A stretch of DNA of 9,681 nucleotides. Origin: Gammaproteobacteria bacterium. Its GTDB lineage: Bacteria > Pseudomonadota > Gammaproteobacteria > SZUA-152. Numbering within the stretch: position 1 is the first letter of the stretch; each line of letters begins with the position of its first letter. This document shows positions 1 through 9,681 of the stretch, in pieces. The stretch spans positions 1 through 9,681 of the forward strand of contig JAUVNZ010000041.1 in assembly GCA_030599435.1 (NCBI GenBank), given 5' to 3'. The notes under the pieces are model-generated. The model did no database searches. It was given only the letters and a program-made list of their open reading frames with translations, and was not told the origin of the DNA. A program made the translations under genes and the position numbers.

Positions 1-1
1 A

Positions 2-439
2 CATGAAAAACGGGGTTCTGTTCGCTTTACGCCCGCGTGCATGATTGCTTTGTGCCAATATCGCTGGCCAGGTAACGTCCGAGAACTCTCCAATCTTCTG
101 GAACGGATGGTAATTATGTATCCTTATGGTGTGGTCGATGTTTCTGATTTACCCGCAAAGTTCAAGCCTAGCGGGGATTCCGAAGATCTGTCTGCGATGG
201 ATTTCGATCAACATCTGGCTTCGAACGCAGATTTACAATCTTCACGTTTACCCCGTGATGGCATAGATTTAAAGGAACACATTAGTACAGTTGAATGCTC
301 TCTTATCAAACAGGCGCTTGATGAAGCAGATGGTGTGGTTGCTCATGCTGCAAAACGCCTCAAGATGCGTAGAACGACATTGGTAGAAAAACTGCGAAAA
401 TATGGTCTTCAACGCAGTGAAACCATGACGGGTATTTGA
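2..439 (+). CDS. fleQ: Sigma-54-dependent flagellar regulator FleQ/FlrA, C-terminal part (5' end outside window)
   Basis: Only the last ~145 codons are present; the frame is open from the left edge, so the gene begins outside the window. The protein is a bacterial enhancer-binding protein that activates sigma-54 RNA polymerase, the master activator of flagellar genes in many Gammaproteobacteria. Visible are the end of the AAA+ domain with the family signature WPGNVREL, followed by a stretch typical of FleQ (YPYGVVDVSDLPAKF), a variable linker, and a Fis-type helix-turn-helix near the C terminus (ALDEADGVVAHAAKRL then RRTTLVEKLRKYGL). The RRTTLVEK recognition helix separates FleQ/FlrA from most other NtrC-family regulators. 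The N-terminal REC-like domain and the Walker motifs cannot be checked. A sigma-54 promoter lies about 55 bases downstream in front of fliF, a natural target. FlrA and FleQ are names for the same orthologue group. Confidence 0.9.
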   Translation, partial: HEKRGSVRFTPACMIALCQYRWPGNVRELSNLLERMVIMYPYGVVDVSDLPAKFKPSGDSEDLSAMDFDQHLASNADLQSSRLPRDGIDLKEHISTVECSLIKQALDEADGVVAHAAKRLKMRRTTLVEKLRKYGLQRSETMTGI

Positions 440-446
440 CTCCTTG

Positions 447-463
447 TAGCAGGTCCTCTGCTA
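447..463. promoter_or_regulatory. Short inverted repeat between fleQ and the sigma-54 promoter
   Basis: TAGCAG and CTGCTA form a perfect 6-bp inverted repeat around a 5-base spacer, 8 bases after the fleQ stop codon. No T-run follows, so it is a poor intrinsic terminator. It sits about 60-75 bp upstream of the expected start site of the sigma-54 promoter, a position where enhancer-binding proteins can bind. Either role is inference, and a chance repeat of this size is possible. Confidence 0.25.
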
Positions 464-492
464 AGCTGTTGAAAAATAAGAAAGTCGTAAAT

Positions 493-510
493 TAGGCACG
501 CTATTTGCTA
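493..510 (+). promoter_or_regulatory. Sigma-54 (-24/-12) promoter in front of fliF
   Basis: The sequence reads AGGCACG, four bases, then TTGCT. It matches the consensus TGGCACG-N4-TTGCW at all but the first base. The invariant GG (495-496) and GC (507-508) are separated by exactly 10 bases, as sigma-54 requires. The expected transcription start is about 12 bases past the GC, near 519-521. A FleQ-type activator gene ends 55 bases upstream, which fits sigma-54/FleQ control of fliF and fliG. The predicted start site lies downstream of the ATG at 510, so that codon would not be in the mRNA from this promoter and the real fliF start must be further in. Confidence 0.85.
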
Positions 511-577
511 TGTCTTTTAGCAAAGGTATTTGCATTGCTAGGAAATCATTGCCAAGCAAAGTGATTAGAGGCGTGTT

Positions 578-652
578 ATGTCGCAGTACATTTCATTCAT
601 TATGGTTTGTAGCAAGACAAAAATTATTAGAAGGGGAAGCAGGTTTGAGTAG
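578..652 (+). CDS. Possible 24-codon leader ORF overlapping the fliF start
   Basis: An ATG with AGAGG six bases upstream opens a 24-codon frame that ends in TAG at 650-652, a few bases beyond the proposed TTG start of fliF at 645 and in a different frame. The arrangement would allow translational coupling. The peptide resembles nothing I recognise; in particular it does not look like a fliE remnant. Short frames like this arise by chance, so this is a weak call. Confidence 0.2.
   Translation: MSQYISFIMVCSKTKIIRRGSRFE
631..637 (+). promoter_or_regulatory. Ribosome binding site deciding the fliF start (TTG 645)
   Basis: The purine run AAGGGGA lies seven bases before the in-frame TTG at 645. 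It is the best Shine-Dalgarno match between the predicted transcript start (about 520) and the first membrane helix of FliF. The ATG at 510 lies inside the sigma-54 promoter. Another in-frame candidate is TTG 549, with AGGA five bases upstream, which would add 32 residues. Confidence 0.55.
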
Positions 653-1781
653 CACAAATGCATTACGACAAATTGGTTTGATGGTAGGGCTTATAGCTAG
701 TGTTGCGATTGGAGCCGCGATTGTTTTGTGGTTATGGATACCCGGTAGTGAGGATTATTTTGGCGACAATATTGGTGATTACAGTGCAGCCTATAGCGCC
801 ACCGAATTACAAACTGAGCGTTCTCAGTATGCAATACAGCCAAGGCATACGGAAAATAATAACAGACTGATTCTATTAGGTAGTGACAATGATAGTAATG
901 GAAAACTGCTAACCCTTTCAGGCGCTCAGTTAGAATATACACAGAAACTTGAGGCTAGTTATACACAACGAATTGAACGGTTGCTAGAACCATTATTGGG
1001 AGCTGATGCTATTAGGGCACAGGTTACCGCAGATATTGATTTCACGGCACGGGAACAAACACTGGAAAAATATAATCCAGATACTCTGGTTTTACGAAAT
1101 AAAGAGTCTGAAGAAATTGTAAAAGATCATGAAGATGGTGAAAACCCAGGTGTATTAAATAAACGACGCCGAGAAGTAAAAAACTACGAAATAGATAAAA
1201 CGATAAATCATACCCGGTCAGCGATTGGTCGCATTGATAAGCTATCAATTGCGGTTATTGTTGACGACAAGTTATCTAAGGGCGTTAAAGGGAACACGAT
1301 CCGCACTCCTCATACCGAAGATGAGCTGAAAAAAATTGCTGACTTTGTAAAAAAGGCGGTTGGTTTTAATGCAAAACGTGGAGATATAGTGAATGTAATA
1401 GGCGCTAGCTTTAAAACACATCGATTTTCGAATCGCCAATTACAAAACCACGTTTCAACAACACCAACCTGGGGCCAGGTTTGGATGAAAGATCTGTTTA
1501 ATAAAACTCTGGGTACATTGTTAGTACTTCTATTAATTTTTGCAGTTATTAGGCCAGCCACCAAGTCGCTTATTAGTTTGCCAGCAAGTATGGCTGAAAA
1601 TGGAGCACAATTTAATTCGAGATCAGACGCCACAAGAACAAATTCTGGTGGTGGTTTGTCTGAAAGAAATGGTATTGGGGACTATGAACGGAACATGGAT
1701 ACAGCTGTTAGAGTTGTAGAGAAAGATCCAAAACTTGTGGCTCAGATAATGAAAAATTGGGTGTCAGCCGATGGTACATAG
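645..1781 (+). CDS. fliF: FliF-like MS-ring protein lacking most of RBM1 and all of RBM2
   Basis: From TTG 645 the product is 378 residues, against about 550-600 for normal FliF, the inner-membrane MS-ring protein of the flagellum. Order of parts: first membrane helix (~11-31, in the FliF-typical context LRQIGLMVGL), a remnant of the start of RBM1 (~36-75), RBM3 (~84-258, with NPDTLVLR-like and NYEIDKTINHT segments typical of FliF), second membrane helix (~288-304), and a C-terminal FliG-binding segment (~347-375, ending VAQIMKNWVSADG). By my recollection of full-length FliF, about 150 residues are missing between ~75 and ~85, covering most of RBM1 and all of RBM2, and the collar insertion in RBM3 is shortened to ~25-30 residues. 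The frame is uninterrupted, so this is a domain loss, not a broken gene. An ATG at 510 in the same frame would give 423 residues but lies within the sigma-54 promoter. The gene overlaps fliG by 11 bases. Confidence 0.85.
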   Translation: MSSTNALRQIGLMVGLIASVAIGAAIVLWLWIPGSEDYFGDNIGDYSAAYSATELQTERSQYAIQPRHTENNNRLILLGSDNDSNGKLLTLSGAQLEYTQKLEASYTQRIERLLEPLLGADAIRAQVTADIDFTAREQTLEKYNPDTLVLRNKESEEIVKDHEDGENPGVLNKRRREVKNYEIDKTINHTRSAIGRIDKLSIAVIVDDKLSKGVKGNTIRTPHTEDELKKIADFVKKAVGFNAKRGDIVNVIGASFKTHRFSNRQLQNHVSTTPTWGQVWMKDLFNKTLGTLLVLLLIFAVIRPATKSLISLPASMAENGAQFNSRSDATRTNSGGGLSERNGIGDYERNMDTAVRVVEKDPKLVAQIMKNWVSADGT

Positions 1782-2775
1782 TGGAACTCGGGGCGTTGAG
1801 CGCGCTGCTATTTTATTGATGGCCATTGGGGAGCAAGCAGCCTCAGAGGTTATGAAACATATGGCCCCCAGAGAGGTGAAAAAAGTTGGTGCAGCTATGG
1901 CAGATCTTGAAAATATCTCTCGCCAACAGGTTGTGAACGTTTTAAACGAATTTTGCGAAACCATGCAAAATGAAACGGGTTTTGGTCTTGGTAATGATAT
2001 ATATCTTCGCAATGTGCTAACAAAAGCCCTGGGAGATGAGCATGCAGAAGATGTGATTGATCGAATATTACAGGGAAGCAACAATAAAGGACTGGAAACA
2101 CTTAGATGGATGGATTCTCGTAGTGTTTCAGAAATCATTAGTGAGGAACACCCACAAATTGTAGCAATTGTGTTGTCCTACCTGGAACCTGAACACTCAG
2201 CTGAAGTTTTAACTTTTTTCCCCGAAAATGTTCGCGCTGATGTGCTTATGCGAATTGCAACACTTGATGGTATTCAGCCAGATGCGCTTAACGAGCTTAA
2301 TGATATTCTTGAGGTACAGTTATCTAGCAGAAACAAGATAAAAACAACTTCAGTTGGTGGTGTAAAAGTAGCAGCAAAAATACTTAACAGTATTGATAAT
2401 TCAATGGAAAGTGAAATATTGGATGATATAAATGAGTCAGATGCCGAACTTGGGCAACAAATCCAGGATATGATGTTTATTTTTGATGATTTGATGACTG
2501 TTGCAGATAGAGATATTCAAACAATATTACGTGAGATATCTTCAGAATCACTTGTGCTTTCATTAAAAGCAGCTGATGAGGTATTAAAAGATAAAATTAC
2601 AAAAAATATGTCTAAACGTGCTGCAATGATTCTAAATGAAGATATAGAGGCAAGAGGTCCAGTTCGACTAAGCGTAGTGACTGATGCTCAAAAAGAGATA
2701 ATAACTGTTATTCGTCGTCTTGCTCTGGCCGGTGATATATCGATAGGTGATTCCTCAAGAGAAGAATACATATAA
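1771..2775 (+). CDS. fliG: Flagellar motor switch protein FliG
   Basis: The 334-residue product has the normal length of FliG, the C-ring protein that binds the FliF tail on the cytoplasmic face and receives torque from the stators. The N-terminal FliF-binding domain begins at ERAAILLMAIG (~10-20). The middle domain carries the EHPQ motif (126-129) for FliM contact. The GG hinge is near 197 and the MFxF motif is at 235-238. Residues aligning with the E. coli torque residues K264, R281, D288, D289 and R297 are K266, R283, E290, D291 and R299: all keep their charge, with one Asp-to-Glu swap. The ATG at 1771 overlaps the end of fliF by 11 bases, indicating translational coupling and joint control by the upstream sigma-54 promoter. 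There is no clear Shine-Dalgarno. No fliH, fliI or fliJ follows: the next gene is on the other strand. The 83 bases after the stop are AT-rich and hold no convincing terminator. Confidence 0.95.
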   Translation: MVHSGTRGVERAAILLMAIGEQAASEVMKHMAPREVKKVGAAMADLENISRQQVVNVLNEFCETMQNETGFGLGNDIYLRNVLTKALGDEHAEDVIDRILQGSNNKGLETLRWMDSRSVSEIISEEHPQIVAIVLSYLEPEHSAEVLTFFPENVRADVLMRIATLDGIQPDALNELNDILEVQLSSRNKIKTTSVGGVKVAAKILNSIDNSMESEILDDINESDAELGQQIQDMMFIFDDLMTVADRDIQTILREISSESLVLSLKAADEVLKDKITKNMSKRAAMILNEDIEARGPVRLSVVTDAQKEIITVIRRLALAGDISIGDSSREEYI

Positions 2776-2858
2776 TATTACCTGTTGTGCATAAATTCTT
2801 TATTCTAAAACTAATCGCTTTAGCCTAATCTATTTATCTAAGGTAATTAATTCGACTG

Positions 2859-3494
2859 TTAAGTATTATCCAAAAGCATACTCGCATTATTAATTATACT
2901 CCTCCGTTGCGTGATAAGTTGCCACCTAGTACCCCCACATTGACGCCACAGGACAACTGCACGAATAGCAGAAAGAAGAAGCGCCCTAATTTTGTTAGCA
3001 TTGACAGGGTTTGAAATGTATACATGCTCACCCTGGACCATAATTCGAGGGGGCAATGTACTGATCGTTTTTGAATACAGGTCAGCTAGATTAGCAATGA
3101 CGTTTTCATGAGTGACCGTAAAGTGTTCCGCCTGGTTTTTTGCTAGTTCAATGCCGGAGCTTATTTCGTTGAGCATAACCTGATTTTTATTTAGTTTTTT
3201 TTCAAGAACAATAGCACCAATGGCGTATTTGGTGACATGCATATCTTTTTGAACCTTAATTTCTGCAGAATTACCGCCAAGCTGGCTAATCAAGGTATTT
3301 AATCCTATTTTAAGATTTTCCACACCTTCAAACACATCTACAGGTTTGTCTACATCGATGTAAAAAATACTCTTGATGCATGTTTCAAAAGACTTTTCAT
3401 CCAGGGCGCCAGTTTTAGCGACTTGTTGAACAAGTGCAGCCGCTTGATAGATTCCAGCAATTGCTATCGTTCGGTCAGTTATAGAATAAGACAT
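2859..3494 (-). CDS. hflD: High frequency lysogenization protein HflD homologue
   Basis: The 211-residue product matches HflD (YcfC), a peripheral inner-membrane protein of about 213 residues in E. coli. There it was found through its effect on phage lambda CII stability; its normal cellular role is not well settled. The best evidence is the C-terminal block PPRIMVQGEHVYISNP followed by KIRALLLSAIRAVVLWRQCGG, which follows the E. coli block GPRIQVTG...[23 protein letters not shown] closely, and the N-terminal ITDRTIAIAGIYQAAALVQQVA. It lies 38 bases downstream of mnmA on the same strand, the usual operon arrangement. No strong Shine-Dalgarno is seen, suggesting reliance on mnmA read-through. 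In E. coli purB follows; here the gene instead faces fliG convergently. Confidence 0.93.
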   Translation of the reverse strand: MSYSITDRTIAIAGIYQAAALVQQVAKTGALDEKSFETCIKSIFYIDVDKPVDVFEGVENLKIGLNTLISQLGGNSAEIKVQKDMHVTKYAIGAIVLEKKLNKNQVMLNEISSGIELAKNQAEHFTVTHENVIANLADLYSKTISTLPPRIMVQGEHVYISNPVNANKIRALLLSAIRAVVLWRQCGGTRWQLITQRRSIINNASMLLDNT

Positions 3495-3532
3495 GTTATA
3501 AAAATCGGTTCTTTATTGTGCCAGTTTGTTAG

Positions 3533-4642
3533 TTAATTTATAACACCACCACCAAGACATTCTTCATTATGGTAGAAAACAACGGATTGGCCTGGAGTGA
3601 TTGCACGTTGAGGTTGATCAAATACCACTTCACAATAATCATCATCAAGTTGTGAAATAGTACAGGCTTGTTCCTGTTGTCTATAGCGTGTTTTCGCCAT
3701 ACATTGAAATGGTAAATTATTAGGGCGATCAGCGATCCAGTTTAGCTGGGTAGCAGTCAGTTTACTCTTGAATAACATAGGGTGATCATGCCCCTGAGCA
3801 ACGAGCAATATATTATTTTTAAGATCTTTCCCTATTACATACCAGGCATCGCCGCTTCCATCAGTTGATCCACCAATCCCAAGTCCCTGTCTCTGCCCAA
3901 GGGTGTAGAACATTAATCCGTCATGTTGGCCTATTATTTTACCTTCAGGTGTTCGCATTTCACCTGGTTGTGATGGAAGGTAACGATTGAGAAATTCTTT
4001 GAATTTTCTCTCGCCAATAAAACATATGCCAGTACTGTCTTTTTTAGCGTAATTAGAAAATCCTGCCTTTTCTGCTATTTGGCGAACTTCTGGTTTAGTC
4101 AGGTCACCTAAAGGAAACCAGGATTTTGATAACTGTTGTTGGTTAAGTGCATACAAAAAATATGTTTGATCTTTGTTGGTATCCTTAGCTTTAAGGAGTC
4201 TGTAGAAACCCTTTGAATGTTTAATCCGTGCGTAATGTCCAGTTGCAATATGACTGGCACCAATTTTCAAGGCATGATCAAGGAAAGTCTTAAATTTTAT
4301 TTCCTTATTACACATGACATCTGGATTCGGTGTCCGACCAAGCCTGTATTCTTCAAGGAAGTAACTAAATACTTTATCCCAGTATTCTGTGGAAAAGTTA
4401 CGGGTGTGTAATGGAATATTGAGTTTGTCACAAATATTCGATGAGTCTTTTAGATCTTCAGCGGCACTGCAGTATTCTTTTTCATCATCTTCTTCCCAGT
4501 TTTTCATGAATAGCGCCTGCACATCATAACCCTGCTGTTGAAGGAGATATGCTGCAACAGAAGAATCAACTCCGCCAGAAAGTCCCACAATAACGTGTTT
4601 TTCGTTGTTAGGAATAGGAATGGATGGTTTGGACTGAGGCAT
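3533..4642 (-). CDS. mnmA: tRNA-specific 2-thiouridylase MnmA
   Basis: MnmA is a cytoplasmic ATP-dependent enzyme that thiolates U34 at the wobble position of tRNA-Lys, -Glu and -Gln, using sulfur passed on by the IscS/Tus relay. From ATG 4642 the product has 369 residues, the usual size. The PP-loop ATP-binding motif SGGVDSS is at residues 22-28. The two catalytic cysteines are present: C111 in [12 protein letters not shown] (C102 in E. coli) and C207 in [12 protein letters not shown] (C199 in E. coli). The C-terminal region has [11 protein letters not shown]. An in-frame TTG at 4657 would add five residues; neither start has a clear Shine-Dalgarno, and I prefer the ATG. The gene sits between rluE and hflD. 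E. coli has nudJ between rluE and mnmA, but only about 70-90 bases separate the two genes here. Confidence 0.96.
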
Positions 4643-4729
4643 AAAATATTTAGTCAATTAATGGATAGAAAATGGCTGGATGCACTTAGCGTTTATTATC
4701 GCCACACACATGGGTCCTTTAATAATAAT

Positions 4730-5365
4730 TTATTTCCCCTGATTTCCTCGGCGGCGTACCGATTTATGTTTTGAATGGGGGCGTTGTCCCAGGGAACCTC
4801 TCGTGCGGTTGTTTATTGTACGCCAATTATCGGGTATTTGTGTTTCAAGCCATTGGCCTGGTGCTAATGTATCAAGTGACCATGGCCCTACATTGGATCG
4901 CACCAATCGTAGTGTCGGGTGGCCAATAGCTGCGGTCATACGCCGCACCTGCCGATTTCGACCTTCCTGAATTGTAAACTCAAGCCAGCTAGTGGGGATA
5001 TTGGCACGGTACCTGATTGGAGGATTTCGGGGCCAAAGTTCCGGCTCAGGGATCATGTGAGCTTTAGCAGGTGCTGTTTTACCGTCTTTTAGTTGGATAC
5101 CATCACACAGCTTTTTGATTGCTTGATTATTCGGTATCCCTTCCACTTGCACCCAATAGGTTTTAGTCATTTTGTGGGACGGGTGGCTTATTTGATGTTG
5201 CAAATTGCCATCATCAGTTAGTAGGACCAGTCCCTCACTATCTCTATCCAGTCGTCCAGCAGGGTAGACCCCTTTGATATCAACAAAATCGGCCAATGTA
5301 CGGCGGTTTTCGCTGTCAGAAAACTGGCATAAAACGTTGAATGGCTTGTTAAAAAGTAGAAGCAT
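4730..5365 (-). CDS. rluE: 23S rRNA pseudouridine synthase E (RluE)
   Basis: RluE converts U2457 of 23S rRNA to pseudouridine. The 211-residue protein carries the RsuA/RluE-family active-site motif GRLDRDSEGL, with the catalytic aspartate at D40, and the RluE-typical blocks KTYWVQVEGIP, LWPRNPPIRYR, IPTSWLEFTIQEGRNRQVRRMT and HPTLRLVRSNVG (each shown in part). The start LLLFNKPFNVLCQF corresponds to VILFNKPYDVLPQF in E. coli RluE, which has an additional ~40-residue basic N-terminal extension absent here. Instead this protein has a basic, Arg/Lys-rich C-terminal tail of about 27 residues (from ~185) that could help RNA binding (inference). It is the first gene of the leftward group with mnmA and hflD. 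Confidence 0.94.
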   Translation of the reverse strand: MLLLFNKPFNVLCQFSDSENRRTLADFVDIKGVYPAGRLDRDSEGLVLLTDDGNLQHQISHPSHKMTKTYWVQVEGIPNNQAIKKLCDGIQLKDGKTAPAKAHMIPEPELWPRNPPIRYRANIPTSWLEFTIQEGRNRQVRRMTAAIGHPTLRLVRSNVGPWSLDTLAPGQWLETQIPDNWRTINNRTRGSLGQRPHSKHKSVRRRGNQGK

Positions 5366-5510
5366 CTGGTTGACATTTGTACAGAATTATCAATAAAGTG
5401 ATAGTTCCTATGGCTGGCATACCTGTTTTTAACCACCGGTTGAAATAAACGGGTCAAGTATAACTGATTTATAACCTGTCCATAATATGATTACTGCGTA
5501 ACTTATTGAT
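5366..5510. promoter_or_regulatory. Divergent intergenic region between rluE and the GGDEF-EAL gene
   Basis: These 145 bases separate two diverging genes and must hold promoters for both if they are transcribed from here. A TTGACA hexamer stands at 5370-5375 on the + strand but has no good -10 at 16-18 bases. A CATAAT at about 5481 could be a -10 for the GGDEF-EAL gene but lacks a good -35. On the - strand TTGACC is followed only by weak -10 candidates. A short inverted repeat (TATCA, six bases, TGATA) lies near 5388-5403. I cannot assign either promoter firmly. Confidence 0.35.
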
Positions 5511-8450
5511 ATGCGGTATTTTTGTTGGAAAATCGCGGAGATAATTCGTCCTATGCGGCCCAACGTGAGCAGTATACGCTGGAGATTTATTGTTACGGCA
5601 ATTGTGCTGGCTGCGATGGCATTGCCCGCTATTTTCTATACGCAAAGCCGGTTTCGCGAGACATCGCACGAAAGTACCCTTCTAGTACAGGAGCATCGGG
5701 ATTTTGGTTGGGTGCTTAACTCCCTTAAAGATTCTCTCCGGGCTGCAGAAAGTTCTATATATAGGTATCCCTTGTTGTTGGATGAGGAATCACGCCGCGA
5801 TGTGTTGATCCGTCTTGCAGAAGCACAATTTCAGTCAAAGCAGCTTCAAGAGCACTATGTCGTTGATCGGCATGGCCAGTTTGGTGATTTTGCTGCAAAT
5901 CTAAATTTTGTACTCAATCGTCTAAATGAAGAAACAAAAAATTTATTGGACGTGTTATCTGATGTTCAAACCCGTTTTCCAGCAGCCCCAATATTAGTCA
6001 ATAAACTTTACCCTGCGAATCTTGAATTTACGGCCGCTGTGGAAACAGCCATCCTTGATGTTTTAGAACTACCCGAAAGTCCTGAGCAAGAGAAAATAAA
6101 ACAGACCCTTCAGGATATACGATATGCGTGGGCACAACAGGTAAGTTCTGTTCAAATTTTTGTTGCTAATCGATCGGGTGTATTCGGCCAGCCTAAGAAA
6201 AGCATGAAGTTAAACAAAACTAATCGAGAAATATACGCACAACAAATTGATGATTATTTGGTACGCCTACATGAATTAGATTCACAGGGTAAATTAGACA
6301 TTGAGTTAAAAATGTCTTTAGAGAATATGAGGCTGGCAAAAATACGCTATGACAATAACTTTAATGAAGCTAAGGATATATATTTATCAAAAAACTGGCG
6401 CGCAGACATGCCAATTCTTCGAAACAACATTCGGCCAATTCTAGACCAGTCCTGGGGTATTATTGAGTTAATGCAAGAAGAGCTCGATGAGTTGGCACAA
6501 CAGAATTTAATGAAATCACTAGCGACCGCAGACACCTTATCGAACATAATATGGTTGTTTGCTGGCTTTATGGCAGCGCTTTTATTTATAGCCTATCTAT
6601 TATTTGAATATCTAATACGAAGACCACTATATGAAGTATCCAAGGCATTAGATGCTGCGGGTCGAGGTGAAAATTACATCCCAGTTTTACGTTCTCCTAC
6701 ACAAGAAACTAATTCATTAGTAGAATCATTTCGTCGTATGCAGGGCCAGGTTATTTCCAGGCAACTTCGGCTCGAAGCTATTCTAGATAATGCGGCAGAA
6801 GGAATCATAACTATTGACGGATCTGGAATAATCGAAACATTTAATGATGCAGCTCTAAAATTATTCAGATTTAACTATAGTGAAGTTATTGGTATATCCA
6901 TCGATGATGTGGTTAATTTCCCTGATAATAGTCCGTATTCCGATTTTCTTGATCTATGCGAGGGATTACCAACTGGTGTTGATGAGAACGAAACAATAGT
7001 TGAAGTATTTCGTCGTGATAAACTGCCTTTCCCAATGTCGATTAAGATTAATAAGTTTAAGATTGAGGATAATTTATTTTATATCGCAATCGTTGAAGAC
7101 ATTGGCGATCGTATCGCCATGATAGAGAACCTCAGGGAAATGGCGGAACATGATTCATTAACAGGGTTATATAATCGCCAATACTTTATGACAGAGCTTG
7201 AACGCGTGGTGGAAAATATACGTAGAGGAAACCATAGACAATTTGGTTTGTTATACATAGATTTGGATAATTTTAAGTATGTAAATGATACGTTGGGCCA
7301 TATTGCTGGTGATCGAGTGCTCATTGAAGTTACAGAGATGCTTCGTCATCGCAATAGAAAAAGTGATTTGTTAGTAAGATTAGGCGGCGATGAGTTTGCA
7401 ATATTAATATATGATGCAGATAGAGAGCACATTGTTAAAGCAGCTGATGCACATCGTAAATTGTTAGCTGACTTTGTATTCAAACACGAAGGTAGTGTAG
7501 TACAAATAGGCTGTTCTATAGGAATTACATTATTTGGGGACAGGGAGGTAAGTGAAGAAGATTTACTAGTTCAGGCAGATATCGCATGCCATGTCGCTAA
7601 GCGCTCAGGACGAAATAGGGTCCATGTTTTTGAGACAGATGATAAAAAGAATATGGCTGCTATGTCGGAAGATATGGGCTGGGCGCGTAGGATTAACGAT
7701 GCAATCGAAAACAACCAGTTTCGTCTTGCTTGCCAGCCTATAATGGAGTTGAAGACAGGAGAAATATATCGCCAGGAAGTTTTGTTAAGAATGACTGATG
7801 AACATAATGAATTAATTTTACCCGCAGGATTTTTGCCGTCGGCTGAACGTTTTGGACTAATGCGAGCAATAGATAGCTGGGTTGTAGAGCACTCTATTGA
7901 ATATCTTGGCGCCCAGTTGAAAAAGAATCCGCGCCTACATTTTTCGATTAATCTTTCAGCAGAATCTGTGGGAGATAAAAAAATACTAGAAACTATAACG
8001 AATTCATTGCTGCATCATGAGGTTCCACCTACAGCTGTTACATTTGAAATTACTGAAACTGTTGCAATCGCAAATATTGATAAGGCAGTAGAGTTTTTAA
8101 ATCAATTGCGTAATCATGGTTGTCAGACTGCACTTGATGACTTCGGAGTAGGCTACTCTTCTTTTGCATACCTTAAAGATTTGCCGGTAGATTATGTCAA
8201 GATAGATGGTTCTTTTGTTCGGGATATAAATCGTGATAAATTACAATTGGCGATGGTGAGGTCTATGAATGATATAGCTCATGCTATGGGTAAGTACACG
8301 ATTGCAGAGTTTGTAGGTAATGCAGATGTAATGAGGCTTTTAAAAGAAATAAAAGTAGATTTTATTCAGGGATACCATGTAGGCGGACCAGTATTAATAG
8401 AAAATGATATGCTATTTGAAACTAAGTCTAACGTTATTCGTTTAATGTAG
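5511..8450 (+). CDS. Membrane-anchored PAS-GGDEF-EAL protein (c-di-GMP synthesis/hydrolysis)
   Basis: This 979-residue protein spans the inner membrane twice (~24-43 and ~346-368). A largely helical extracytoplasmic region of ~300 residues lies between; I do not recognise its fold or ligand. Inside follow a HAMP-like linker (~370-418), a PAS domain (~421-540), a GGDEF domain (~546-705) and an EAL domain (~733-965). The GGDEF motif is intact at 625-629, with an RxxD product-inhibition site (RKSD, 616-619). In the EAL domain the signature reads EVL (756-758), a tolerated variant, and the catalytic set appears complete: E756, N814, E846, D876/D877, K897, E933, Q953. Segment AEFVG differs from the common AEGVE. 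Both activities are therefore possible; which dominates cannot be told from sequence. An alternative start at ATG 5553, with GGAG 12 bases upstream, would remove 14 residues and leave the first membrane helix intact. The next gene is convergent, so this is probably a single-gene transcript. Confidence 0.93.
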   Translation: MRYFCWKIAEIIRPMRPNVSSIRWRFIVTAIVLAAMALPAIFYTQSRFRETSHESTLLVQEHRDFGWVLNSLKDSLRAAESSIYRYPLLLDEESRRDVLIRLAEAQFQSKQLQEHYVVDRHGQFGDFAANLNFVLNRLNEETKNLLDVLSDVQTRFPAAPILVNKLYPANLEFTAAVETAILDVLELPESPEQEKIKQTLQDIRYAWAQQVSSVQIFVANRSGVFGQPKKSMKLNKTNREIYAQQIDDYLVRLHELDSQGKLDIELKMSLENMRLAKIRYDNNFNEAKDIYLSKNWRADMPILRNNIRPILDQSWGIIELMQEELDELAQQNLMKSLATADTLSNIIWLFAGFMAALLFIAYLLFEYLIRRPLYEVSKALDAAGRGENYIPVLRSPTQETNSLVESFRRMQGQVISRQLRLEAILDNAAEGIITIDGSGIIETFNDAALKLFRFNYSEVIGISIDDVVNFPDNSPYSDFLDLCEGLPTGVDENETIVEVFRRDKLPFPMSIKINKFKIEDNLFYIAIVEDIGDRIAMIENLREMAEHDSLTGLYNRQYFMTELERVVENIRRGNHRQFGLLYIDLDNFKYVNDTLGHIAGDRVLIEVTEMLRHRNRKSDLLVRLGGDEFAILIYDADREHIVKAADAHRKLLADFVFKHEGSVVQIGCSIGITLFGDREVSEEDLLVQADIACHVAKRSGRNRVHVFETDDKKNMAAMSEDMGWARRINDAIENNQFRLACQPIMELKTGEIYRQEVLLRMTDEHNELILPAGFLPSAERFGLMRAIDSWVVEHSIEYLGAQLKKNPRLHFSINLSAESVGDKKILETITNSLLHHEVPPTAVTFEITETVAIANIDKAVEFLNQLRNHGCQTALDDFGVGYSSFAYLKDLPVDYVKIDGSFVRDINRDKLQLAMVRSMNDIAHAMGKYTIAEFVGNADVMRLLKEIKVDFIQGYHVGGPVLIENDMLFETKSNVIRLM

Positions 8451-8483
8451 ATTAAATATTAACATCCTATTTTTCATAGAAAA

Positions 8484-9518
8484 TTATAGATGTGTAGACG
8501 GTAAGGTTGCTGTCAAACTTTTCAGAAATTCTGCAATATCCTTCACGTCAGGTTCTGAAAGAACTTTATCTAATTGTGTTTTCGCCATTACGCGTATAGC
8601 CTCTTCGAGCGTTGAAACTGAACCATTGTGGAAATAAGGAGCAGTTAGCTCAATATTCCGTAATGTTGGTACTCGCCACATGTAACGTTCATCGGGCAAG
8701 CCAGTATATTCGTATAACCCAAGGTCATCAGAAAGTTTGTATTTCCGCTCAAAAGTTGATCCTAAATTATTTGGAAATAGTTCATAAAATCCATCCCCCA
8801 TCTTAAGCGCAGGCCCAGGGGCAGGCCCAGAAAATGTTGAACCAAAATGGCATGCAAGACATCCAGTATCATTAAATAATTTTAACCCGCGTTTTGCACT
8901 AGCAGTTATTGCTGATTTATTACCGGTAATATAATTGTCAAACGGACTTTTTCCTGTCATCAATGATCGTTCAAAACTTGCAATTGCACGTGCTAGATTA
9001 ATTCCAGAAACAGGATTTTCTAGATTAGAATCATCATTAAAAGCATTTTTAAAACCTTGCTGGTATCTGGCAGAACGATTTAGATGGGTCACTATTGCAC
9101 CAATGTCCGCCCACTTCGATACTACGGGATCGCGCAAATGGTCAAGTGTTTGATTCTCAAGACTTGTCGAACGTCCATCCCAATACAATACAGTTTGTAA
9201 ACCAATATTCCATAAGCTGGGCGCAGAACGACGGGTTTTACTACCATTTTGGCCTATAGATACTGATTTGTTGTCACCACCACCATGCGCAAGCTGATGG
9301 CAGCTATTACATGATAGGGAGCTATCCAGTCCTAGCAATTCAGGATCAAAATATAATTGTTTACCCAGGGCTATTTTGGCTTGTGTTTGAGGGTTTTCTA
9401 CCGGAACTGGTGATGACTCAGGTAGTGGCTGTAAATAATCAAATGTCCAGCTAGTCCCAGGTACAAGGAGGAACAAGAAGAAAAGGAAGACAAATTTCAG
9501 GTTTAAAGGGCCGCGCAT
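8484..9518 (-). CDS. Di-haem cytochrome c peroxidase (CcpA/MauG family), periplasmic
   Basis: The 344-residue product starts with a Sec signal peptide (basic start, hydrophobic core ~8-20, cleavage likely around 24-26), so the mature protein is periplasmic. Two CxxCH haem c sites are present, CNSCH (70-74) and CLACH (220-224), one per domain, as in bacterial di-haem peroxidases that reduce hydrogen peroxide with electrons from small cytochromes or cupredoxins. Family features include LYFDPELL, LYWDGR (~111-116), RVPTLRNIELTAPYFHNGS (~282-300) and a methionine at 311 in VMAKTQLDK, the expected axial ligand of the electron-transferring haem. Length fits the family (about 320-350). A GGA lies eight to nine bases before ATG 9518 and a sigma-70-like promoter is seen upstream. 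MauG-type oxidases share this layout, but no mau genes are in view, so peroxidase is the better reading. Its partner cytochrome is not in the window. Confidence 0.93.
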   Translation of the reverse strand: MRGPLNLKFVFLFFLFLLVPGTSWTFDYLQPLPESSPVPVENPQTQAKIALGKQLYFDPELLGLDSSLSCNSCHQLAHGGGDNKSVSIGQNGSKTRRSAPSLWNIGLQTVLYWDGRSTSLENQTLDHLRDPVVSKWADIGAIVTHLNRSARYQQGFKNAFNDDSNLENPVSGINLARAIASFERSLMTGKSPFDNYITGNKSAITASAKRGLKLFNDTGCLACHFGSTFSGPAPGPALKMGDGFYELFPNNLGSTFERKYKLSDDLGLYEYTGLPDERYMWRVPTLRNIELTAPYFHNGSVSTLEEAIRVMAKTQLDKVLSEPDVKDIAEFLKSLTATLPSTHL

Positions 9519-9554
9519 TGTTATTCCGTCAGTGTTGATTCAATAAAGTCATGC

Positions 9555-9582
9555 ATTGTACCCGAGCTAATAAGGCAGTCTA
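9555..9582 (-). promoter_or_regulatory. Sigma-70-like promoter for the cytochrome c peroxidase gene
   Basis: On the - strand, TAGACT (9577-9582; four of six matches to TTGACA) and TACAAT (9555-9560; five of six matches to TATAAT) are separated by 16 bases. Transcription would start near 9548, giving a leader of about 30 bases before ATG 9518. The match is reasonable but not exceptional in AT-rich DNA. Confidence 0.45.
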
Positions 9583-9681
9583 GCGAGAGATTTTTCTAAA
9601 GAAGATCTGATTGGCAATATTTCGACTTTGGGGTAGTCGCTTGAGGTCAAAATATTGTCTTTCCAACAGACATGTTTTGGT

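Follow-up and report, generated by a model that had tools for sequence, protein, structure and literature searches.

A short FliF and its linked locus: a candidate motor without a flagellum in uncultured Gammaproteobacteria

Elsewhere, so far as we know, a lineage that loses its flagellum usually loses the motor with it. Motor relics reportedly remain after flagella have been ejected. Rotor and stator are found without a filament in laboratory mutants of Pseudomonas aeruginosa (flgK; PMC12288467) and Vibrio cholerae (flaA; PMC7098655), and SpoIIIAG forms a ring from an RBM domain and a beta-barrel without RBM1 and RBM2 (PMC8270960). Non-flagellated Lysobacter keeps many flagellar genes, having lost motA, motB, fliE and fleQ among others (PMC9927559). 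We describe a 9,681-nucleotide stretch of gammaproteobacterial DNA (assembly GCA_030599435.1, contig JAUVNZ010000041.1, positions 1 to 9,681, hereafter the window) that encodes a short FliF, denoted FliF*, next to a complete FliG. Taken with the locus of a relative (genome G001), it indicates that some uncultured Gammaproteobacteria appear to keep the rotor ring, the switch proteins and the stator while the export machine and the filament have been lost, which suggests a present role for the motor outside swimming.

The locus is filed as a variant of the flagellar motor, and not as a flagellum in the sense of the organelle. It shares with the motor homologous FliG, MotA, MotB and FliL, the middle domain of FliM, the RBM3, second transmembrane helix (TM2) and tail of FliF, and the regulators FleQ, FleN and FliA, and its gene neighbours are common to the full-length systems of sister genomes. 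It differs in being without RBM1 and RBM2 (in the window and in G001), the top loop of the collar and the SpoA domain, and neither FliN nor the export gate with FliI, the rod, hook, filament and FlhF were found in G001. The parts of a rotor-stator torque module are there, i.e. a three-domain FliG with its charged residues, MotA and MotB (in G001), the FliF tail and the GGxGR loop of FliM. A type III injectisome is not indicated, since SctJ/YscJ (PF01514) and an FlhA-family gate both gave 0 matches in G001.

The other systems differ from the locus in distinct ways. SpoIIIAG is encoded in the spoIIIA sporulation operon, whereas FliF* has a flagellar neighbourhood, a FliG-binding tail and a stator. 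The filament-less mutants lack late parts only and were made in the laboratory, while here a natural state reaches back to the ring. Ejected-flagellum relics likewise leave a motor part without a filament, but are the remains of a complete flagellum, in contrast to a reduction at the level of the genes. A literature search for such a FliF or for an export-less motor found no description in titles and the starts of abstracts, with subscription journals mostly outside the search.

The short FliF and its relatives

The fliF* gene lies at 645..1781 on the + strand, and encodes a FliF of 378 amino acids (aa) without RBM1 and RBM2 and without the rod-holding loop of the collar. The frame is open and uninterrupted over 510-1781, as an earlier note made from the letters of the window had read it; the TTG at 645 is most likely the start, because several relatives begin with methionine at that residue (e.g. 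P0008, P0011, P0015). YscJ_FliF_C (PF08345) is the sole Pfam match, YscJ_FliF (PF01514, covering RBM1 and RBM2) being absent, and the NCBIfam fliF model scores 114.1 bits, under its cut-off of 129.75. FliF* is 44-46% identical to the full-length FliF of three sister genomes. On alignment with these the first transmembrane helix (TM1) matches, a linker of some 50 residues stands where RBM1-RBM2 would be, and the match resumes at RBM3 and continues through TM2 into the tail. The central claim of the earlier note, that RBM1 and RBM2 have been lost while RBM3, both transmembrane helices and the FliG-binding tail are kept, is borne out by Pfam, by this alignment and by AlphaFold2.

In the AlphaFold2 model TM1 is a helix of residues 3-31 (651..737, + strand as for all parts of the gene), in agreement with the alignment with full-length FliF. 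Residues 31-88 are disordered, with a predicted local distance difference test score (pLDDT) below 50; the variable linker that stands in place of RBM1-RBM2 comprises residues 32-88 (738..908). RBM3 and the beta-collar hairpin, with a shortened tip loop, occupy residues 91-257 (915..1415; PF08345 and Foldseek), and mostly have block pLDDT values of 77-94, with 56 at the tip of the collar. TM2 is a helix of residues 279-310 (1479..1574), again matched in the alignment, and the tail contains helices at 346-376, the conserved FliG-binding motif being encoded within 1677..1775. The model is weak overall (mean pLDDT 65.6, predicted template modelling score 0.38; 110 of the 378 residues below 50, in linkers), but this prediction of the monomer, which the earlier note had suggested as a check, does show a mostly confident RBM3 and a collar hairpin. 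Searched with Foldseek, the model gave FliF structures at ranks 1-18, including the RBM3 rings 6sd1, 8ftf and 8zdt, with SpoIIIAG at rank 19 (E 1.2e-4).

The earlier note had taken SQYAIQP as the start of RBM1. This stretch falls in the linker, which is poorly conserved (mean consensus 0.44 over residues 35-84 in 20 short proteins, described below) and predicted to be disordered; the assignment is not supported, and an RBM1 remnant in the linker was rejected. The least conserved regions in the short proteins are the cytoplasmic linker, the periplasmic linker and the collar tip. RBM3 of Salmonella makes rings alone in vitro (PMC8786727), and therefore a ring without RBM1 and RBM2 is plausible. 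Without RBM2, we infer that FliF* would offer no seat for FliPQR.

Short FliF proteins of the same kind, for which the earlier note had proposed a search, were found. From 5.8 billion proteins the 7999 candidates sharing most words were scored, giving 260 matches of which the best 120 were listed. Among those 120, 19 other proteins (P0002-P0020, 363-439 aa, 63-78% identical) carry PF08345 alone and have the same architecture, and the next match after them is a full-length FliF at 48% identity; P0080, P0081 and P0105 (PF08345 only, 277-339 aa, 39-41% identical) were left out as possible fragments. P0014 is 98% identical to the FliF* of G001, so that these two are not independent. A midpoint-rooted FastTree tree of 42 sequences and 260 columns, in which 22 of the other 100 matches listed were set beside the window protein and the 19, places the 20 short proteins in one group with nothing else inside (support 0.90), on a stem of 0.50 substitutions per site. 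With a single clade, repeated origin of the short FliF is unsupported. Across the 24 genomes of the family (its order holds the same 24) a short FliF is found only in G001, and a full-length FliF in 21 (frames of 488-578 aa). The search found no FliF in the remaining two, G013 and G023, which look like gaps in the bins and not biology.

The ratio of nonsynonymous to synonymous substitution (dN/dS) between the window and G001 is 0.078 for fliF*, 0.044 for fliG and 0.029 for the fleQ end; the flanking genes give 0.056 (mnmA), 0.066 (rluE), 0.100 (hflD) and 0.105 (mauG). All of these ratios are rough, because dS is saturated (1.4-2.6) and there is one genome pair. Within fliF* the linker (residues 35-90) is the most relaxed (dN 0.59, dS 1.01), and the cytoplasmic linker comes next (dN 0.36, dS 1.37). 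An assembly error or frameshift was rejected as the origin of the short gene, given the open frame, the same loss in the 19 other listed proteins and the low dN/dS. The earlier note had said that an assembly error, a further fliF of full length alongside a complete flagellar gene set, or frameshifts with dN/dS near 1 would refute it. The first is unlikely, the second was not found in G001 (the sole relative whose genome was examined), and the last were not seen in this one saturated pair.

We compared the collar with full-length FliF, taking the 95 of the 100 other listed matches that have at least 480 aa. The top loop is cut in the short proteins, where landmarks are 36-41 residues apart (19 of 20 measurable) as against 59-72 in the full-length set (80 of 95 measurable), and the PGAL motif of the collar is present in 92/95 full-length proteins and in 0/20 short ones. 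The literature search found no paper on this motif. In Salmonella, FlgB, FlgC, FlgF and FlgG are bound by the top loops of the S-ring (PMC11481574; related: PMC8270960, PMC11528121). Among collar residues reported to face FlgB or FliE, three are relaxed in the short set, i.e. N365 (7/20 vs 94/95), H374 (5/20 vs 77/95) and, less so, I372 (14/20 vs 82/95). In contrast to the loop, the tail is retained; DPKLVAQI[MI]KNWVSADG, which we take to be the FliG-binding part of FliF, is found in 20/20 short proteins.

The partner gene fliG (1771..2775, +) is intact, as the earlier note had it, with N, middle and C domains by Pfam and NCBIfam (TIGR00207, 333.4 bits). Residues K264, R281, D289 and R297 (Salmonella numbering) are kept and D288 is replaced by E, so that 4/5 of what are presumably the torque residues of the C-terminal domain are identical.

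The linked locus in G001 and in sister genomes

The relative is the Gammaproteobacteria metagenome-assembled genome CSMAG_2374 (JAUWLO010000043.1 is its locus L001). The order of its genes is PilZ-fleQ-fliF*-fliG-hflD-mnmA-rluE-GGDEF/EAL-mauG-fliL-fliM*-fleN-fliA-motA-motB. From fleQ to mauG this is identical to the window, which reaches its edge after mauG; fliL-fliM*-fleN-fliA-motA-motB beyond mauG are read in G001 only, and add the stator (MotA/MotB), FliL and a shortened FliM (FliM*) to what the earlier note had described. These genes are carried on contig C11, which runs from the end of fliG through hflD, mnmA, rluE, GGDEF-EAL, mauG, fliL, fliM* (239 aa), fleN, fliA, motA and motB to FHA, pilU and pilT. 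The end of C11 (L079) overlaps the end of L001 (10963-11542) past fliG with 96% identity over 587 aligned columns, and therefore the two belong together, though they are not letter-identical; the mismatches are probably strain variants, as if the bin mixes strains. Contamination during binning was rejected as the source of motA, motB and fliM* on C11, since this contig ends in fliG and has the neighbours seen in the window, hflD-mnmA-rluE-GGDEF/EAL-mauG, in unchanged order. Pfam identifies FliL, FliM (PF02154 only), MotA, MotB (plug and OmpA), full FleQ, a sigma-70-family factor, a ParA-type ATPase and an atypical PilZ in the G001 locus; FleN is ~76% and FleQ 74-78% identical to those of sisters. 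A contig of 38332 bases is common to the FliF*, FliM* and MotB match sets, and contigs of 28583, 18145, 10242 and 9224 bases to the FliM* and MotB sets; a shared contig here means an identical longest-contig size, and only that of 38332 bases includes a FliF* match.

In sister genomes the genes are split between two places. The first has pilT-pilU-FHA beside fliI-fliH-fliG-fliF-fliE-fleR-fleS-fleQ-PilZ, and is whole in G024; the second is hflD-mnmA-rluE-GGDEF/EAL-(fliJ, fliK)-mauG-fliL-fliM-fliN-...-flhA-flhF-fleN-fliA-che-motA-motB. G001 has the two fused into one, with junctions at fliG/hflD and motB/FHA and with blocks cut out. The sister genes that had no family search (fliJ, fliK, fliO, fliQ, cheY, cheZ, cheB, fleS, fleR and others) were named by eye from translation and order. 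The kept set is the torque module with its regulators. The chemotaxis genes found in sisters between fliA and motA are absent at that place in G001. Six CheW-domain matches occur in G001 in two clusters (Chp-like and Wsp-like by eye), compared with 11-13 in four sisters. The Wsp-like cluster ends in a GGDEF response regulator, and the Chp-like cluster has a protein of 2079 aa (L092 1956-10807; L093 1957-14666; named by eye).

Other flagellar parts were sought across G001. FlhA gave 0 matches (9/11 genomes were positive, G013 also being negative), as did the rod/hook family PF00460 (9/11 positive, G023 also negative), YscJ_FliF PF01514 (4/5 positive) and SpoA PF01052 (4/5 positive, with 2 in each of the four controls). 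Probes for FliN, FliP, FliR, FlhB, FliE, FliH, FliC, FlgI and FlgK had no match in G001, and matched in control genomes G003 (stated size 2.1 Mb, the same as G001) and G006. With FliI only ATPase-type matches of 29-33% were obtained, and with FlhF only ~30% matches to other GTPases, both probes again matching in G003 and G006. RpoN is present (5/5 genomes). Several junctions are read inside contigs, i.e. fleQ/fliF*, fliG/hflD and GGDEF-EAL/mauG in the window and fliM*/fleN and fliA/motA in G001, and the absences at these places are therefore independent of the completeness of G001.

FliM* has lost the SpoA domain, and among the matches listed the 20 nearest all lack PF01052; 19 have 231-243 aa and P0139 has 182 aa. 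P0173, P0228 and P0234 (without PF01052, 47-52% identical) were left out of the 20, and P0140 (56%) was counted by length. FGG[DE]GR is kept in 20/20 short FliM, and we take its GGxGR loop to be a contact with a retained partner. An N-terminal motif, presumably of the CheY-binding type, is kept in 19/20 with E[IL]D.LL changed to E[IL]N.LL; the N form is found in 0/98 and the D form in 93/98 of the other matches (98 of the 99 remaining served as the control). We note that this motif persists in 19/20 though the che genes beside motA are gone. Across 369 gammaproteobacterial genomes, 40 FliM matches were obtained at E <= 1e-62, a strict threshold that hides distant cases, and only the G001 frame is shorter than 327 aa. 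The model of G001 FliM* has a mean pLDDT of 75.1, and residues 48-235 match the FliM middle-domain structure 7dm9 in sequence.

MotA and MotB are present in G001, and MotB has the channel Asp, the plug and the OmpA-type domain. From 8000 scored candidates, the best 120 being listed, we defined a set of 14 MotB matches by at least 65% identity (264-268 aa). All 14 keep a SYADFITLLFAFF-type segment, whose Asp we assume to be that of the channel. Several relatives of G001 MotB are named MotD in NCBI.

The lost interfaces match the lost partners (RBM1 and RBM2 the export gate, the collar loop the rod, and SpoA FliN), and therefore FliF* and FliM* look trimmed, at the level of sequence, to the contacts whose partners remain. 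Correspondingly, the kept interfaces (the FliF tail, the GGxGR loop of FliM, the charged residues of FliG and the Asp segment of MotB) match kept partners.

A pared-down motor and its alternatives

Our best explanation as a whole, to which we assign a probability of roughly 0.5, is a pared-down motor most likely used in signalling. We give the same probability to a bolder reading, in which a free-standing rotary motor would have arisen from the flagellum by loss of export and propeller, with FliF and FliM trimmed to the contacts with retained partners, and would now serve the inner membrane as a sensor or transducer driven by ions. It is considerably safer to say that some kind of filament-free motor module is maintained, and we regard this as highly probable. 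FliF* would form an S-ring-like ring in the inner membrane; FliG and a FliM* without FliN would sit on the cytoplasmic side of this ring, and stators of MotA/MotB, together with FliL, would surround it and turn or load it, the genes being controlled by FleQ with sigma-54, FleN and FliA. This supports the suggestion in the earlier note of a repurposed ring that carries FliG but has no place for export, perhaps a rotor and nothing more, where ring formation, turning and role are inferred. Such a motor should be unable to build a flagellum, because no genes for the export gate, rod, hook or filament were found in G001 and FliF* and FliM* have lost the corresponding binding surfaces. By analogy with filament-less mutants, stators engaging the filament-free rotor may read load or ion-motive force, and the linked GGDEF-EAL and PilZ proteins, with FleQ/FleN, may adjust cyclic di-GMP (c-di-GMP) in response. 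Such a sensor is the most likely single use, put forward tentatively and at somewhat less than even odds; it is favoured by the kept set of FliG in the window and the stator, PilZ, GGDEF-EAL, FleQ and FleN in G001. In the filament-less P. aeruginosa flgK mutant c-di-GMP rises in a stator-dependent way, with FliG implicated (PMC12288467), and the V. cholerae flaA mutant needs the stator, and ion binding by the stator, for its response (PMC7098655).

Several points weigh against this interpretation. The same sources state that deletion of fliF in P. aeruginosa raises exopolysaccharide (EPS) independently of the stators and that deletion of fliG also raises Congo-red binding (PMC12288467), while loss of rotor parts in V. 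cholerae gives a stator-independent response (PMC7098655); a signal of this kind can therefore sometimes arise without a rotor. The linkage of GGDEF-EAL and PilZ genes is no evidence of a new function, because these are flagellar neighbours in sisters too. In the locus we recognised no new protein of the periplasm to which torque could be passed. E276, T278 and E280, which in Salmonella face FliE, are invariant in the short FliF set, something that a simple loss of the rod would not require; of the other collar residues reported to face FlgB or FliE, E367 does not vary either and all 20 have K at position 370. Lastly, the stator, FliL and FliM* beside this locus are read in one relative, a metagenome-assembled genome of unstated completeness, and bins here can lack loci, as with FlhA in G013 and the rod genes in G023.

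That last point is the basis of the least probable alternative, in which a normal or alternative flagellum is present and its genes have been missed through gaps in the assembly. We consider this very improbable, given the absences read inside contigs in both the window and G001 and a FliF* that, without RBM2, would give FliPQR no seat. It is also improbable, if a little less so, that the flagellum has been lost and the genes are its decaying survivors. Large losses of linked genes, the reduced proteins and the long stem branch (0.50 substitutions per site) would fit decay, but the lengths are consistent for fliF* (20), MotB (14) and FliM* (19/20 at 231-243 aa, one of 182), the losses follow interfaces, there are no broken frames, dN/dS is not near 1 and that of fliG (0.044) is below that of mnmA (0.056), and the sigma-54-like site upstream of fliF* is identical in the window and L001.

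Two further possibilities accept a maintained module and assign it another role, and both seem to us unlikely, to the same degree. The rotor might turn and, as other machines of the MotAB family do, drive a periplasmic or surface partner, with RBM3 and the shortened collar transmitting the torque; gliding or some process of the envelope would be the result. The retained FliL, FliG torque residues and stator with its OmpA-type domain and channel Asp would suit such a force generator, as would the collar hairpin, predicted to persist by AlphaFold2; however, no candidate for a load-bearing partner was recognised in the locus, and conservation is lowest, apart from the cytoplasmic linker, in the linker of the periplasm and at the tip of the collar. 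Alternatively a static ring or patch of FliF*, FliG and FliM* might position FleN (FlhG) and tune FleQ, with the stator a bystander or a gated ion leak. Retention of FleN and FleQ (at the identities given above) and the low dN/dS of the ring parts agree with this, but it leaves the intact channel segment of MotB (14/14) and the FliG torque residues unexplained, and FlhF was not found in G001. For the last reason the polar scaffold suggested in the earlier note is less favoured, although FleN/FlhG does stay.

If the pared-down motor is real, it would be a natural minimal rotor-stator in which the motor half of the flagellum was kept and the export and propeller half lost, so that the two halves can separate in evolution. 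Torque generation and stator sensing could then be studied without filament assembly, and the locus would bear on a question debated in surface sensing, namely whether signalling by itself is enough for selection to keep a motor.

Further features of the window

The window begins with the 3' end of fleQ (2..439, +), which encodes the AAA lid and Fis-type helix-turn-helix of a sigma-54 activator (Pfam); the full-length orthologue in L001 has 475 aa with FleQ, Sigma54_activat and HTH_8 domains. Upstream of fliF* lies the sigma-54-like promoter site AGGCACGCTATTTGCT (494..509, +), with 1 mismatch to TGGCACGN4TTGCW. The 16-mer is identical (16/16) upstream of fliF* in L001 (8914-8929), and a single such site is within chance, 1.25 being expected in the window at up to 2 mismatches. 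A possible second site with 2 mismatches lies upstream of fliL (L078 17778-17793, - strand), where the count in the fliL-side locus is near chance (6 vs 3.2 expected). No relative of the window was found in a search of viral contigs, phage and plasmid records lying outside that search.

Downstream of fliG, three flanking genes are on the - strand: hflD (DUF489; 2859..3494), which in sisters is the first gene of the second flagellar region, mnmA (3533..4657) and an rluE-type pseudouridine synthase (4730..5365), the latter two assigned by Pfam and in the same neighbourhood in sisters. They are followed by a PAS-GGDEF-EAL protein (5511..8450, +), which adjoins the fliK-mauG-fliLM region in sisters too and is proposed as a partner of the motor. 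By eye it keeps GGDEF, with RxxD five residues before it, and the EAL-domain motifs EVLLR, NLS, DDFGVGYSS and QGY. The last gene is a mauG-type di-haem cytochrome c peroxidase (8484..9518, -; Pfam). A gene of this type adjoins fliL in four sisters (G021, G024, G022 and G003), with those in the sister loci at L056 3852-4940, L059 6957-7904, L060 4879-5823 and L086 4353-5294, and it stays with the locus after loss of the flagellum.

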